Assembly: GCA_019058295.1 (NCBI GenBank)
Contig: JAHPZI010000006.1
Location: 62,001 to 126,000, forward strand
Source of the DNA: Promethearchaeota archaeon
Lineage (GTDB): Archaea; Asgardarchaeota; Lokiarchaeia; Sigyniarchaeales; SOKP01
Reading direction: 5' to 3'
Length of the DNA: 64,000 nt
Shown here: piece after piece, positions 8,635 to 14,743 of the stretch
How the letters are laid out: every line of letters starts with the position of its first letter
Numbering within the stretch: position 1 is the stretch's first letter
Position numbers and translations under genes: made by a program
The notes under the pieces: generated by a model
What the model was told of the DNA's origin: nothing
The model's input: the letters and a program-made list of their open reading frames with translations, nothing else
Databases searched by the model: none

Positions 8635-9930
8635 TTAAAGATCTAATTTATGCTTTTTCTTAAATAAGTCTTTTAATTCGCCTAGAATAGAGGATCTTGA
8701 ATTAGGTGTTGGAGGCTCAATATTAGATTCTTCGAGGTGAATAGGCTCTTCAGCTGGTATTTCAGCTGGTACTTCAGCTGGTACTTCAGCTGATACTTCA
8801 GCTGGTACTTCAGCTGGTACTTCAGCTGGTACTTCAGCTGGTACTTCAAGATACTCCCTTCCTTCAATTGCTTCAATTCTCTGTTCTATTGCTGATAATT
8901 GGGATGAGATAGATTCAGAAAGTTTTATAATAGCATTCATTAGGCCTTCCACAATTTCTCCTAATCCATCAATTCTTGTAATAGCAGGGTCGCTTACACT
9001 ATAATTTGATTTCATAACATCTTTAATATATTTGGAAAATTTTGGTTCATTAGATATTAAGGAGTATATCGAAGTTAAATAGGTTTCATAATCTAATTTA
9101 AGCTCTATACGGTCAAATAATTCTTTCAGATTATCTTTTAAAAATTCAACATTCAACTCTATTGTTGGTTCCCCTTTTAAATCCGGGTCGTATTTATGTA
9201 AGAAGATTAGCAAGTAAGGATTTTCTTCTAAATTACCAAGTATTTCAAGTATTTTTTCAAAATACTCAAATGAAGCTGCAAATCTCTCAGAATCTTGTAC
9301 ATCAATTACATATAATAGTAAATCAATCTGAAGGAAATATTGCTCAGGATATTTCAGATATTTACTTCTATATTCTTTCTGCCCTCCCAGATCCCAGACA
9401 AATAAATCGAGCCCTGAACCTTCTATTACTTTTCTTTTGACCCCCTTTGTGGGTTTTAAACCAACCAGATCATCTATTCCTAACTTACCACCAAATTTAG
9501 ATATTATTGCGGTTTTACCGGCATTGTCTAGACCTACAACGACAACCTTTTGTTGTGTTTTATCTCCACTAATCGCATCGTCTTTGATGCTTGAGATAAT
9601 AGAGCTAATAGTAATGGCTTTTTCCAATTTTTTTTCAAATTGAGGATATTTATTGTAGAGTGCTTTAATTTTTTCATCAAATTTTTCTCGTGTCTTTTTA
9701 CTTTTAAATTTAGAAGCTTCGACGATATTGGAGATTTCTAAAAATTCTTCTAAATAATTCGCCTCATCTTTGTCAATAAAATTAAATATTTCAAGGGGTA
9801 AATTCTTAATATCATCAATAGATTCTATTTTTATGGTTTCCTCTCCGCCTGAATATTCTAATTTTTTAACGAATTTAGGTTCCAAGAATTTTGCCAGTGC
9901 ATCAATTATATTTGAGAAACCTGATTCCAT
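8635..9930 (-). CDS. Rag/Gtr-Arf-like GTPase with helical N-terminal and repeat-rich C-terminal extensions
   Basis: A 431-residue protein with a central GTPase domain. The N-terminal ~115 residues are helical and charged. The GTPase core has P-loop GLDNAGKTA (about residue 130), a switch I Thr region (LKPTKGVKR), switch II WDLGGQKEYRSKY, and G4-like HKYD. HKxD in place of NKxD is characteristic of Rag/Gtr GTPases, while WDLGGQ is also Arf-like. A short coiled coil (ISSQLSAIEQRIEAIEG) precedes about eight PAEV tetrapeptide repeats and a basic tail. Probable role: a GTP switch on a membrane or scaffold, perhaps with the nearby Roadblock protein; inferred only. Confidence 0.85.
   Translation of the reverse strand: MESGFSNIIDALAKFLEPKFVKKLEYSGGEETIKIESIDDIKNLPLEIFNFIDKDEANYLEEFLEISNIVEASKFKSKKTREKFDEKIKALYNKYPQFEKKLEKAITISSIISSIKDDAISGDKTQQKVVVVGLDNAGKTAIISKFGGKLGIDDLVGLKPTKGVKRKVIEGSGLDLFVWDLGGQKEYRSKYLKYPEQYFLQIDLLLYVIDVQDSERFAASFEYFEKILEILGNLEENPYLLIFLHKYDPDLKGEPTIELNVEFLKDNLKELFDRIELKLDYETYLTSIYSLISNEPKFSKYIKDVMKSNYSVSDPAITRIDGLGEIVEGLMNAIIKLSESISSQLSAIEQRIEAIEGREYLEVPAEVPAEVPAEVPAEVSAEVPAEVPAEIPAEEPIHLEESNIEPPTPNSRSSILGELKDLFKKKHKLDL
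8748..8848. repeat. 12-bp tandem repeat inside the Rag-like GTPase gene
   Basis: The unit ACTTCAGCTGGT (plus strand) is repeated about eight times with rare substitutions (one GAT variant, one ATT variant). It encodes PAEV/PAEI tetrapeptides as a Pro-rich acidic linker between coiled coil and tail. Copy number is likely to vary by slippage between strains. Confidence 0.92.
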
Positions 9931-10122: not shown

Positions 10123-11028
10123 ATGCCTTCTGAATCCGATGATTTTAATGAAGATAAGGAAAACTGCTGTGATTCTCCTAAAATTAGCGAAGAGGATGGT
10201 TTTTATGTATGTTTAAACTGTGGATCTGTATTCTCTAGAATTCTCGATTCATCACCCAGAAGGGCATTTACAGCGGAAGAGATTCAAAAAAGAAAAAGTA
10301 CCGAACGTGTTTATAGCCCTATCGGCCCTCGTACAATTATTCGCGGTAGTCGTGATGCTCGAGGTACTTTGTTAAGCCCAAAATTTAAATCAAAATTTAA
10401 TAGATTAGCTAAAATCCATAGATCCTTAACAACCAGTTATGAAAGAAATTTATGGATAGCTTTACCAAATTTACAGCGTTTACAAAAAAGATTAGGTATT
10501 CCTGATATAGTTGCTGAGGATGCACTTCGAATATATACCCAAACCGTTAAAAAAAAGTTAACGATGGGACGAAGTATTGATACATTATTATCTGCATCTA
10601 TATTTTGTGCCTTAAGAATTCATGGTATTCCCAGAACTATAGAGGAAATAACTAAGATTGCTCAGATACCAAAGAAGAAAGTTATAAAAAGTTATAGATT
10701 AATTTTGATGGAGATTTTACCTCATTTAAATTTAAAAGTACAACATTTCACCTCAGACCGTTATGTAGATAAGTTTAATGATGAATTGGGATTGTCAATG
10801 CAAGTTAGAAATATTGCAGTTAAATTAATTAAAAGTGCGAAAGAAAATGGTTTTAACACTGCTGGTAAAGATCCAAAAGGAATTGCTGCTGCCGCTATCT
10901 ATCTCGGTTCTAAGATAGCAAATGAAAATCGCACTCAGAAAGAAATATCAAAACTCGCGATGGTTACAGAAGTAACACTTCGCATGAGAGTTAAGGACCT
11001 CCAAAAATACGCTAATATTATTCTATAA
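10123..11028 (+). CDS. tfb: Transcription initiation factor B (TFB/TFIIB)
   Basis: A 301-residue archaeal TFB. It recruits RNA polymerase to TBP-bound promoters. The N-terminal zinc ribbon is followed by a B-reader/linker (RRAFTAEEIQKRKSTERVYSPIGPRTII) and two cyclin-like repeats, about residues 105-200 and 205-300. The second carries NTAGKDPKGIAAAAIYLGSK and the recognition helix region. The zinc ribbon is unusual: cysteines are at 15, 16, 30 and 33, so the first CxxC/CxxH knuckle is degenerate. The end overlaps the convergent 1241-residue gene by 11 bases. It may be one of several TFB paralogs. Confidence 0.95.
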   Translation: MPSESDDFNEDKENCCDSPKISEEDGFYVCLNCGSVFSRILDSSPRRAFTAEEIQKRKSTERVYSPIGPRTIIRGSRDARGTLLSPKFKSKFNRLAKIHRSLTTSYERNLWIALPNLQRLQKRLGIPDIVAEDALRIYTQTVKKKLTMGRSIDTLLSASIFCALRIHGIPRTIEEITKIAQIPKKKVIKSYRLILMEILPHLNLKVQHFTSDRYVDKFNDELGLSMQVRNIAVKLIKSAKENGFNTAGKDPKGIAAAAIYLGSKIANENRTQKEISKLAMVTEVTLRMRVKDLQKYANIIL

Positions 11029-14000
11029 TATTGATTAATTCTTTTTCTTCCTCAAATAAAGGCAAAATATTTAATAGGTTTTCAATGTTAGAATTATATT
11101 GTTTCATATCGTAGATTTTTACATCAATAATGAATTTCATCAAAGTAAAATAGAACGTATCTTTAAGAATTTTTTCGCTCAATCCCATATTTTCAAAAAA
11201 TTTATTAAATTCAATTTTTATTTGCTTAGGAGATTTAATTTTTAATAAAGATAAACCATACAAAAAAAGTAGCATTGCACTGGTCTCATAATTCTTTCTT
11301 TTCAAAAAATTATTAGATAACTCTAAATATTTATTTGCTGCTTCCTTGAATTTTTTGTTTTTTACTAATAATAAAACCTCATCATAATATCGTTTTTTCA
11401 TTGCTTTTCTTTTAGTAAAAAAATCTTTAATATCCCTTTTTATATCACCTACTTTTTGTTGAAGACTACTATTAATACCGTCTAACTCAATTTTTATATG
11501 TTTAGGCTTTTTTATGAGAGTTGTGTCTTCAATTTTATCCTTTATTATTTCCTCTCCTAAAAGGGTTCTTAGAAAAGTGATTTCTGGTTCAAAAAGAATT
11601 AATTTATCAATGAGATGATTGATGCTTATTTGGATTAAATCTTGTAGATCTTCTTGATATGCAATGAAGATATATTTCATGAATTGAATTTCTGGTAACG
11701 TTTCTTCTATAATATTAAAATTTAAAACCTCTTTTGTATGATCTACAAAAATCGATTTCGCAAATTGAACATTCGTATCATAAATCTGAATTAAGGTTCC
11801 TAAAATTAAACTTACGGCTGCATATTTAAGAAGTTTTTTATCAGCGAGCTTTTGAAATGCGCTTAAATAAATTAAGGATGCTTCTTGTAAATTATTATTA
11901 ATTAATTCTTTGATAGCTTTATCCCAATAATCTCGTTTCATCATTTTTCTTTTAGCAATATCTTGGGTTTTTTTTTCAATGTTTTTTGCTATTTGATTAA
12001 TTTCTCTTCTAAGCTTTGCTATTTCCTCAGGAGGTAATTTAGTTTTTTCAGTTTTCTCTTCTTTTTCAATTTTTTTACCCAAATAATCATAAAGTACCAA
12101 AATTTCTTCTTCAAACATCGGTAAAAATTCTAAATAAGACATAGCTTTTTTTAATTTTGGTTCATCTTCGATTTTTTTCAGATCTATAACATATTCTATA
12201 AGAGTGACTGGGAATGTCTCGAATAACAAATTTCCTACTCTGGAAAATTCTTCTTTTATATCTTTCATTAAATTTATTAATTCATCTATTCTATCATCTT
12301 TTATTAACAATAGAGACGCTACAGCTAAGGATACTCCAGCTAAATTATATTTTTTAATTTTATTCAATTTAATTACACTCTCCTTATAAGAAATAATAGC
12401 GTTATCAAATTCTTGATTTTTTATGAATTCCAAAGCATTCTTAAAATAAGTTCGTTTCATACCACTTCTTTGTTTCATTTCATTTTCTTGATCCTGCTTT
12501 GCATCCCTTCCTTTTTTCATTATAATCGAAAGCTTTTCTTTTAATATTTCGGTCTTAACTGATTCTTTAGCTTTCTTGGTTTTTATTGCTGCTTTGCTAG
12601 TCTCTACTTTAGCTAATTTCTTGTGGATTTCATTTTTAAATGTTTTATTTTCAATTTTATCTGAAAATGTTTGGGCAGATGAAAAATCTTCTAAAGTAAT
12701 ATAGATTTCAGCAATTTTCTTATAGATTTTATCAAAATTAACTTTAAATTTTTCAACGTCTAAATAAGCTGCTGCAATTATATGAATTTTTTTTCTTAAT
12801 TCATTTGATTTTTCGATTCCTGATAAATTATTTTCAATTTCTACAATTTTTAGGGCTTCCTTTTTGATTTGTTTTATAAATAATTTATTTATTTCTCTGG
12901 ATTTTTCATACAATTGTTGACTTCTAAAGATTTTATTTGATTTTTCAAAAATTTTTTCTTTATTAGTGAAATCCTTTTCTGATGGCAATTTTTTCAATTT
13001 TTCAATGAAGAGTGTATAGATTCTTATTAAGTAATTTTTCTTAGTTTCATCTTTTAAATCTGAGTAGAACTCAAAGAAATTATCAAATAAATTACCTTCA
13101 ATTAAAATGTCCAAAGATTTTATCAAAATCTGATTTCCTGCTTCTTCTTTACCTATATCTTTGAGAAAAATAGAATGATTTTTTATTATTTGAGCAGCTT
13201 TAAGAAAATCATCTTTCTTAATATATTCATTAGACTCTTCTATTTTTTGAGAATTCATCTCAACAATAATATTTTCTTCAGCATCATAAAAATCTTGTAT
13301 AATATCAACCCCTTGTTGGACATATTCATTTATTTCTTTCTTTTTTAGTTTTTTATTCTTCTCTTCAATTTTTACACTAAATTCAGTTAATTCCTTCTTT
13401 AATTCCAAAGAATTTAATTTATTGATTAAAATAGTAGCCATCCCAAAATTCAATTCTTCTAAGAGTAATTTAATTAATTTTTCCAATTTGTTATCAATAT
13501 CTACTTTTTCTAACTCATAAGTCTCCCAAATATTTTCAATCTCATCGTGTACCTCTTTAGCAGCATATAAATCCTTTTCGTTGACTTTTTGTTCTAGTAA
13601 CTTTATTAATATCTCAATTACCTTTTCTTCAAATATTTTTAAGTCTTCATATAGCCCTTCTCGTTGATATTCATTTATACTGTAATATAATTGATCCCTT
13701 GCAGATTCTAGCTCTCCATTTGAAGATAAATATTCAGCAGCGTCAACAATTTTTTCAGAAACTTCACTTAAAATACCACTAGTTTCTTCGTGAGGTAACC
13801 TTTCAAGAATACTAAATGCGTTTTCAACTTTACAGGCTGAGATAAAAGAATTTATAGATAATTTAAAACAATCATTAACTAATTTTTTATCTTCTAGCTC
13901 AATTGATGCCCATTGAGCAGCGCTTTCATATTGTGAAGCGGCTAATTCGTAATCTCCATTATTAAATAGTTTATTTCCTTCTGTAATCATCGCTCTGTGA

Positions 14001-14743
14001 TATAATTTCTTAAAATCTATCGCTTTTCTTTTATCAAATTTATTAAAAATTTCTGAAGCTTCTAAAAAAAGGTTGATCTTTGAAAAAGTAAAGGCAGCTT
14101 GTTCATAATGAATCATGAATTCGCTATTATTGTAAATTTCTGAAATTATTGCTGCCTTTTTCATAGCCCGAGCAGCATAATAATAATTTTGTTCTTTAAA
14201 ATATTCATTCGCTAATTCTATAAATATAGGAAATCTCAACCAAGCATTTTCAATATTTAATGGAGTTTCTGCAGCAATCATCGCCAATGATAGGCATTCA
14301 AGCGCTTGATGAAATTTTTTTGGTGAAAGATTTATAAATACTTCAAGATCAGGGTAATTTAACCACATGCTTTCCAAAACATCGTTAGTAATAAGAGGAA
14401 GGAGACCATTTTTATCATAAAAAATAACTACTATAGGTATATTCCTTTTAACTGAATTTATAATAGGTAGACTCATTTCAAAAAACTCAAATTCCTCAAT
14501 TTTAAGAGGATTAATAAGAAATAGAATTCCATCAACAGTAGGAATAACTTCATCGTAATCTGCAGAAATAATATCCGTTAAAACGTCCACTTCCAAATCG
14601 CAAATATCTTCTAACGCATTAATTTCTTTATAAAATTCATAATAAGCATGCTTCTCCTCACCTACATCCTGAAATGATCTCACTATATATTCATATGTCG
14701 ATTCTGGTTCCCCCATTATTAAAACTTTAAATACATATCGCAT
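11018..14743 (-). CDS. Giant pseudo-GTPase/alpha-helical repeat protein
   Basis: A 1241-residue protein of unknown function. The N-terminal ~165 residues look like a Ras-fold domain: strand FKVLIMGEPES where a P-loop would be, VDGILFLIN like the G3-following strand, and IPIVVIFYDKNG at the G4 position. The GxxxxGK[S/T] lysine is absent, so GTP binding is doubtful. Then come TPR/SNAP-like helical hairpins (YYYAARAMKKAA, YELAASQYESAA), long Lys/Glu-rich helices, and three related C-terminal modules of about 170-180 residues starting near residues 763, 935 and 1116, each opening with K[RK]xYxxxA. It probably serves as a scaffold or trafficking-like factor, which I infer from fold resemblance only. 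Confidence 0.8.
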   Translation of the reverse strand: MRYVFKVLIMGEPESTYEYIVRSFQDVGEEKHAYYEFYKEINALEDICDLEVDVLTDIISADYDEVIPTVDGILFLINPLKIEEFEFFEMSLPIINSVKRNIPIVVIFYDKNGLLPLITNDVLESMWLNYPDLEVFINLSPKKFHQALECLSLAMIAAETPLNIENAWLRFPIFIELANEYFKEQNYYYAARAMKKAAIISEIYNNSEFMIHYEQAAFTFSKINLFLEASEIFNKFDKRKAIDFKKLYHRAMITEGNKLFNNGDYELAASQYESAAQWASIELEDKKLVNDCFKLSINSFISACKVENAFSILERLPHEETSGILSEVSEKIVDAAEYLSSNGELESARDQLYYSINEYQREGLYEDLKIFEEKVIEILIKLLEQKVNEKDLYAAKEVHDEIENIWETYELEKVDIDNKLEKLIKLLLEELNFGMATILINKLNSLELKKELTEFSVKIEEKNKKLKKKEINEYVQQGVDIIQDFYDAEENIIVEMNSQKIEESNEYIKKDDFLKAAQIIKNHSIFLKDIGKEEAGNQILIKSLDILIEGNLFDNFFEFYSDLKDETKKNYLIRIYTLFIEKLKKLPSEKDFTNKEKIFEKSNKIFRSQQLYEKSREINKLFIKQIKKEALKIVEIENNLSGIEKSNELRKKIHIIAAAYLDVEKFKVNFDKIYKKIAEIYITLEDFSSAQTFSDKIENKTFKNEIHKKLAKVETSKAAIKTKKAKESVKTEILKEKLSIIMKKGRDAKQDQENEMKQRSGMKRTYFKNALEFIKNQEFDNAIISYKESVIKLNKIKKYNLAGVSLAVASLLLIKDDRIDELINLMKDIKEEFSRVGNLLFETFPVTLIEYVIDLKKIEDEPKLKKAMSYLEFLPMFEEEILVLYDYLGKKIEKEEKTEKTKLPPEEIAKLRREINQIAKNIEKKTQDIAKRKMMKRDYWDKAIKELINNNLQEASLIYLSAFQKLADKKLLKYAAVSLILGTLIQIYDTNVQFAKSIFVDHTKEVLNFNIIEETLPEIQFMKYIFIAYQEDLQDLIQISINHLIDKLILFEPEITFLRTLLGEEIIKDKIEDTTLIKKPKHIKIELDGINSSLQQKVGDIKRDIKDFFTKRKAMKKRYYDEVLLLVKNKKFKEAANKYLELSNNFLKRKNYETSAMLLFLYGLSLLKIKSPKQIKIEFNKFFENMGLSEKILKDTFYFTLMKFIIDVKIYDMKQYNSNIENLLNILPLFEEEKELINIIE

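Follow-up and report, generated by a model that had tools for sequence, protein, structure and literature searches.

The question raised by this locus is what an archaeal cell does with a long protein that opens with a Ras-like domain lacking the motifs of a GTPase and continues into helical repeats. The open reading frame lies at 11018..14743 on the minus strand of the window, by which we mean the whole 64,000-nucleotide stretch of the Promethearchaeota contig analysed here. It stands as the sequence-only reading had drawn it and encodes a soluble protein of 1241 residues without a transmembrane-like segment, with a pI of 5.6 and an MRY start that is common to most of its homologues. That no named family has this combination of parts was confirmed for Pfam and NCBIfam, where the protein has no family and yields only sub-threshold DUF357 and TPR_2 matches. 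No published account of an architecture of pseudo-GTPase, solenoid and modules was found in the literature searched (mostly non-subscription papers), and a search for viral relatives of the protein returned none. The component parts are of known kinds, and it is their combination that is missing from the family libraries searched. Asgard multi-domain GTPases with fusions to longin and/or roadblock domains have been described (PMC10933270). These are similar in that a GTPase domain sits within a larger architecture and differ in having longin or roadblock partners, and the words 'pseudo' and 'TPR' are absent from the available text of that source.

The N-terminal domain (residues 1–165; 14249..14743, minus strand) had been read as possessing Ras-like strands without a P-loop lysine, and this was confirmed. 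The G1 P-loop GxxxxGK[ST], the G3 DxxG and the G4 [NT]KxD motifs are absent from all 36 homologues, which conserve instead F5, D71 (in VDGI), P79, W127 and W168. Missing G motifs are by themselves no proof that nucleotide binding has been lost. A profile of residues 1–168, built from 30 homologues and searched in 49 genomes, found as its best matches outside the family mostly proteins of ~180–200 residues, with E-values (per genome) from 1.2e-7. Inspection of 15 stretches gave 16 matching proteins, all of them small-GTPase-like, with GxxxxGK[ST] intact in 14 and degenerate in two. When compared by hhalign with 40 Ras-like Asgard GTPase sequences, the domain aligns with 92% probability over 152 columns (score 46.5), covering the first strand through to the last helix and collinear from beta1. 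Its score against a pooled GTPase profile is 32.2; none of 100 column shuffles exceeded 18.1, and the reversed domain reached 13.6. Among 22 families drawn from neighbouring genes only a small GTPase stands out besides the gene's own family. Arf and Rag profiles alone give only local matches to the domain, which favours descent from a Ras/Rab-like set. The genome-wide profile search and the full-domain alignment support the pseudo-GTPase reading and, as far as sequence comparison can carry it, a descent of the domain from Ras-superfamily small GTPases. To the Asgard members of that superfamily (PF00071) the domain appears homologous along its whole length by profile; it differs from them in that no homologue here retains G1, G3 or G4 and in that it is embedded within a 1241-residue solenoid protein.

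Downstream of the pseudo-GTPase domain, residues 166–744 (12512..14248, minus strand) form a TPR-like alpha-helical solenoid. The proposed helical repeats are supported by TPR_2 matches in the solenoids of 14 among 30 homologues, the strongest at E 6.8e-5, in which the likeness to TPR proteins consists; the repeats of the window protein differ in being divergent, and their matches fall below the curated Pfam cut-off. Within the solenoid, the middle third matches the last third at 96% (346–530 vs 500–745). Three C-terminal modules follow, all on the minus strand: M1 (residues 745–893; 12065..12511), M2 (residues 920–1068; 11540..11986) and M3 (residues 1100–1241; 11021..11446). Their recurrence at a spacing of ~175–180 residues was upheld by profile-profile comparison, which relates M1 to M3 at 99.7%, M1 to M2 at 99.3% and M2 to M3 at 99.1%, no reversed module-module control exceeding 2.8%. 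The K[RK]xYxxxA motif said to open each module is present in two of them (KRTYFKNA at 763 and KRDYWDKA at 936), whereas the third module has KKRYYDEV at 1116. Outside the modules, K[RK]xY is found at 245 and 568. A better common landmark is L[PI][LM]FE[EP]E, at 874, 1048 and 1227, which in M3 takes the form LPLFEEE close to the module end. AlphaFold, given the three modules in alignment together with near-identical relatives, returned a confident, all-helical model (pLDDT 86.4, pTM 0.83), which with the profile homology at 99% supports the view that the modules are alike. M1 is recovered in 36/36 aligned homologues and M2 is missing from 14 of the 36, three of these 14 being from the most distant family, f4, whose C-terminus is recognisable only in part. 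On a tree built from the remaining sequence, without M2, six changes are needed to account for its presence and absence, so that M2 has been lost several times.

Asgard archaea are the group closest to eukaryotes, and among them the gene is confined by our searches to one order. Of 228 Asgard genomes searched with a full-length profile, 71 have the gene, and all 71 belong to the window's order, which is represented by 79 genomes; the window's genome has one copy, and the gene is single-copy wherever contigs permit counting. The eight genomes of the order without a match are mostly incomplete, with two more than 90% complete. No match at E<=1e-6 was found in the 149 Asgard genomes outside the order, a search in which two candidates were scored per genome, so that very divergent members could escape it. 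The named relatives are Lokiarchaeota assemblies at 93–94% identity to the window protein, and identity falls to 25–33% in families f2 and f3 and to 19% in f4. Between pairs of close homologues, dN/dS is 0.04–0.25 in the N-terminal domain; outside that domain it stays under 0.5 except in one short comparison (0.60), so the protein is maintained by purifying selection. Mean column identity is 53% in the N-terminal domain, 48% in the solenoid and 35% in the modules, the last value pooling all three copies. Since conservation in the N-terminal domain equals or exceeds that of the remaining protein and its dN/dS is low, the domain is kept for some function. In one relative (genome G049, L035:2780-6511) a single in-frame TAG splits the gene into two open frames.

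The explanation we prefer, at about an even chance of being right, is that the protein is a large cytosolic docking scaffold or adaptor in which the dead G domain would serve as a fixed protein-binding module. Most likely the N-terminal domain, having lost the residues for GTP binding and hydrolysis, would present a fixed protein-docking surface rather than act as a switch, while the solenoid recognised from sequence profiles might provide the arm, and the C-terminal helical modules, two or three in number, would offer a row of similar binding sites. Such an array would explain why M2 could be lost repeatedly with M1 and M3 staying. Likely clients would be small-GTPase and membrane machinery, which is abundant in Lokiarchaea. 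Pseudo-GTPases are found in eukaryotic scaffolds, for instance CENP-M, the dynein light intermediate chain and AAGAB/p34, in which the G fold is kept and nucleotide binding is lost or unused. The comparison would apply to how the domain may work, by function and not by sequence, and the architecture of these proteins is unlike that of the 1241-residue protein. A scaffold is also the default reading of any solenoid protein, which counts against the proposal. Work on Asgard archaea seeks the origin of eukaryotic membrane traffic and has so far attended to their many active GTPases. That an entire order almost universally maintains, under selection, a protein whose G domain is dead would show pseudo-GTPase scaffolding in archaea. 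Pull-down experiments on cultured Lokiarchaea could take this protein as a concrete target.

The gene's surroundings bear on a first alternative, in which an active small GTPase, neighbouring or other, would be the pairing partner of the pseudo-G domain, much as Rag proteins form heterodimers, with the solenoid as effector. In the window's family, most loci share the order of an Arf/Rag-like GTPase (8635..9930, minus strand) with an intact P-loop, the TFIIB homologue TFB (10123..11028, plus strand), the gene itself, and two further genes, W14894 and W15584. The GTPase gene is thus two genes off in most loci of this family, and the pairing of pseudo-G domains with other proteins is an established theme. 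The Arf/Rag-like GTPase is, however, absent beside the gene at the loci of the other three families, whole blocks and not only the gene's neighbours are conserved in the window's family, and with dozens of GTPases per genome proximity is weak evidence; on balance we consider such a partnership unlikely. TFB is indeed the convergent neighbour that the sequence-only reading had reported, overlapping the gene by 11 bp. Because the window's family is the only one in which TFB and the Arf/Rag-like GTPase were seen close to the gene, little weight is given to either, and TFB proximity was rejected as functional evidence, TFB lying away from the gene outside that family. Near its C-terminus the Arf/Rag-like GTPase carries a Pro-Ala-Glu-Val repeat encoded by a 12-bp tandem repeat of 8.4 copies (8748-8848).

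The modules suggest a second alternative. The helical part had been likened to SNAP as well as TPR scaffolds, and in a Foldseek search of the PDB the first eight matches of the module model are alpha-SNAP, Sec17 and gamma-SNAP, with TM-scores of 0.57–0.65 by query length and probabilities of 0.98–1.00, above the TPRs of kinesin light chain (TM ~0.4). The best structural match is thus SNAP, but the E-values are 0.27 or worse, which indicates a resemblance of fold and is no proof of descent from SNAP. By sequence the module profile aligns with residues 172–289 of Sec17 at E 0.045, over its C-terminal half only. The window protein has no match to Pfam SNAP (PF14938) at E<=1, and 3 of 38 single modules match it weakly (best E 0.013). 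In a control, tiles of TPR-rich Asgard proteins reached similar profile scores, the highest over short stretches. As these generic tiles score as well by sequence, SNAP membership is not claimed, and the modules are called SNAP-like by fold, a character that, as predicted from the model, is a lead. As modelled, they resemble the C-terminal half of alpha-SNAP, gamma-SNAP and Sec17 in fold, and differ in occurring as two or three tandem copies without the SNARE-binding N-terminal half and in their conserved LPLFEEE.

In other Asgard genomes the module profile finds one or two proteins each, among them proteins of about 416–439 residues that may be Asgard relatives of SNAP. Three of four scanned exceed the Pfam SNAP cut-off, four score 24–31 bits against it, and their joint profile matches gamma-SNAP at E 2e-6. 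They comprise a SNAP-like helical N-terminal half followed by what appear to be two beta-sandwich domains, with a weak DUF11 match in one. The modules link the protein to these SNAP-like proteins, which may bear on the origin of SNAP. Such proteins are encoded at L221:1387-2694, L207:682-1929, L208:18-1292, L213:1243-2502 and L216:1252-2499, with a counterpart in the window's own genome around G000:C18:26583-27149.

A SNAP-type adaptor would use its modules like the C-terminal half of alpha-SNAP to hand substrates over to an AAA+ ATPase bearing an N-domain of the CDC48/NSF type. The 20S complex contains several SNAP molecules, whose place the tandem modules of a single chain would take. The structural matches, the Sec17 alignment and the Asgard SNAP-like proteins are in keeping with this, and proteins with a CDC48-type N-domain (CDC48_N) are encoded in 26/26 genomes, although CDC48 is widespread in archaea and its presence proves little. 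Set against it are the Foldseek E-values, the equal scores of single Asgard TPR tiles and the failure of the gene's own protein to reach Pfam SNAP. No SNARE domain exceeds the cut-off in any of these 26 genomes, so if the modules work like SNAP their client would not be a canonical SNARE. We rate this reading as quite unlikely. A vesicle-coat reading was rejected, as the protein has no beta-propeller family match and the N-terminal domain is GTPase-derived.

Comparably doubtful is the suggestion that the gene product belongs to a membrane-associated complex with its divergent neighbours. W14894 (14894..15556, plus strand) encodes a soluble protein of 220 residues of no known family, and W15584 (15584..16672, plus strand) a DUF2085 membrane protein with ~8 transmembrane-like segments. 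W14894 is the deepest conserved neighbour, within a few genes across families f1–f3 (in f2 and f3 where the contig extends far enough), and W15584 is near the gene in f1 and f2, in the latter beside W14894, despite gene identities of 25–33%. Both neighbours, however, are divergent to the gene and not co-transcribed with it, neither is near it at the f4 loci, and their retention could reflect slow local synteny. W14894 has a conserved YLKxDQT motif and is tandemly duplicated in several relatives.

More doubtful still is a composite reading, in which the protein would be an order-wide Asgard adaptor combining a dead Ras-type G domain with tandem SNAP-type modules; its partners would be CDC48-type ATPases or GTPase complexes, and the cell around it would lack canonical SNAREs. 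Were it true, a single chain would unite parts that in eukaryotic vesicle fusion belong to different proteins. Highly improbable is that the N-terminal domain is some other Rossmann-like alpha/beta fold with a convergent likeness to GTPases: a PDB sequence search with its profile gave six weak matches, none significant (E 0.3 or worse; among them a septin, Rab-like 5/IFT22 and a sugar-repressor), and an AlphaFold model from three near-identical sequences reached a pLDDT of only 32 and is uninformative about the fold, but the inspected matches outside the family are all GTPases, collinear from beta1, and shuffling and reversal abolish the signal.

Two small single-domain relatives of the GTPases, at L188 and L199, have a degenerate P-loop (GDREVGRRT and GDPEVGKAN) with the NKLD motif kept, and are possible further pseudo-GTPases.
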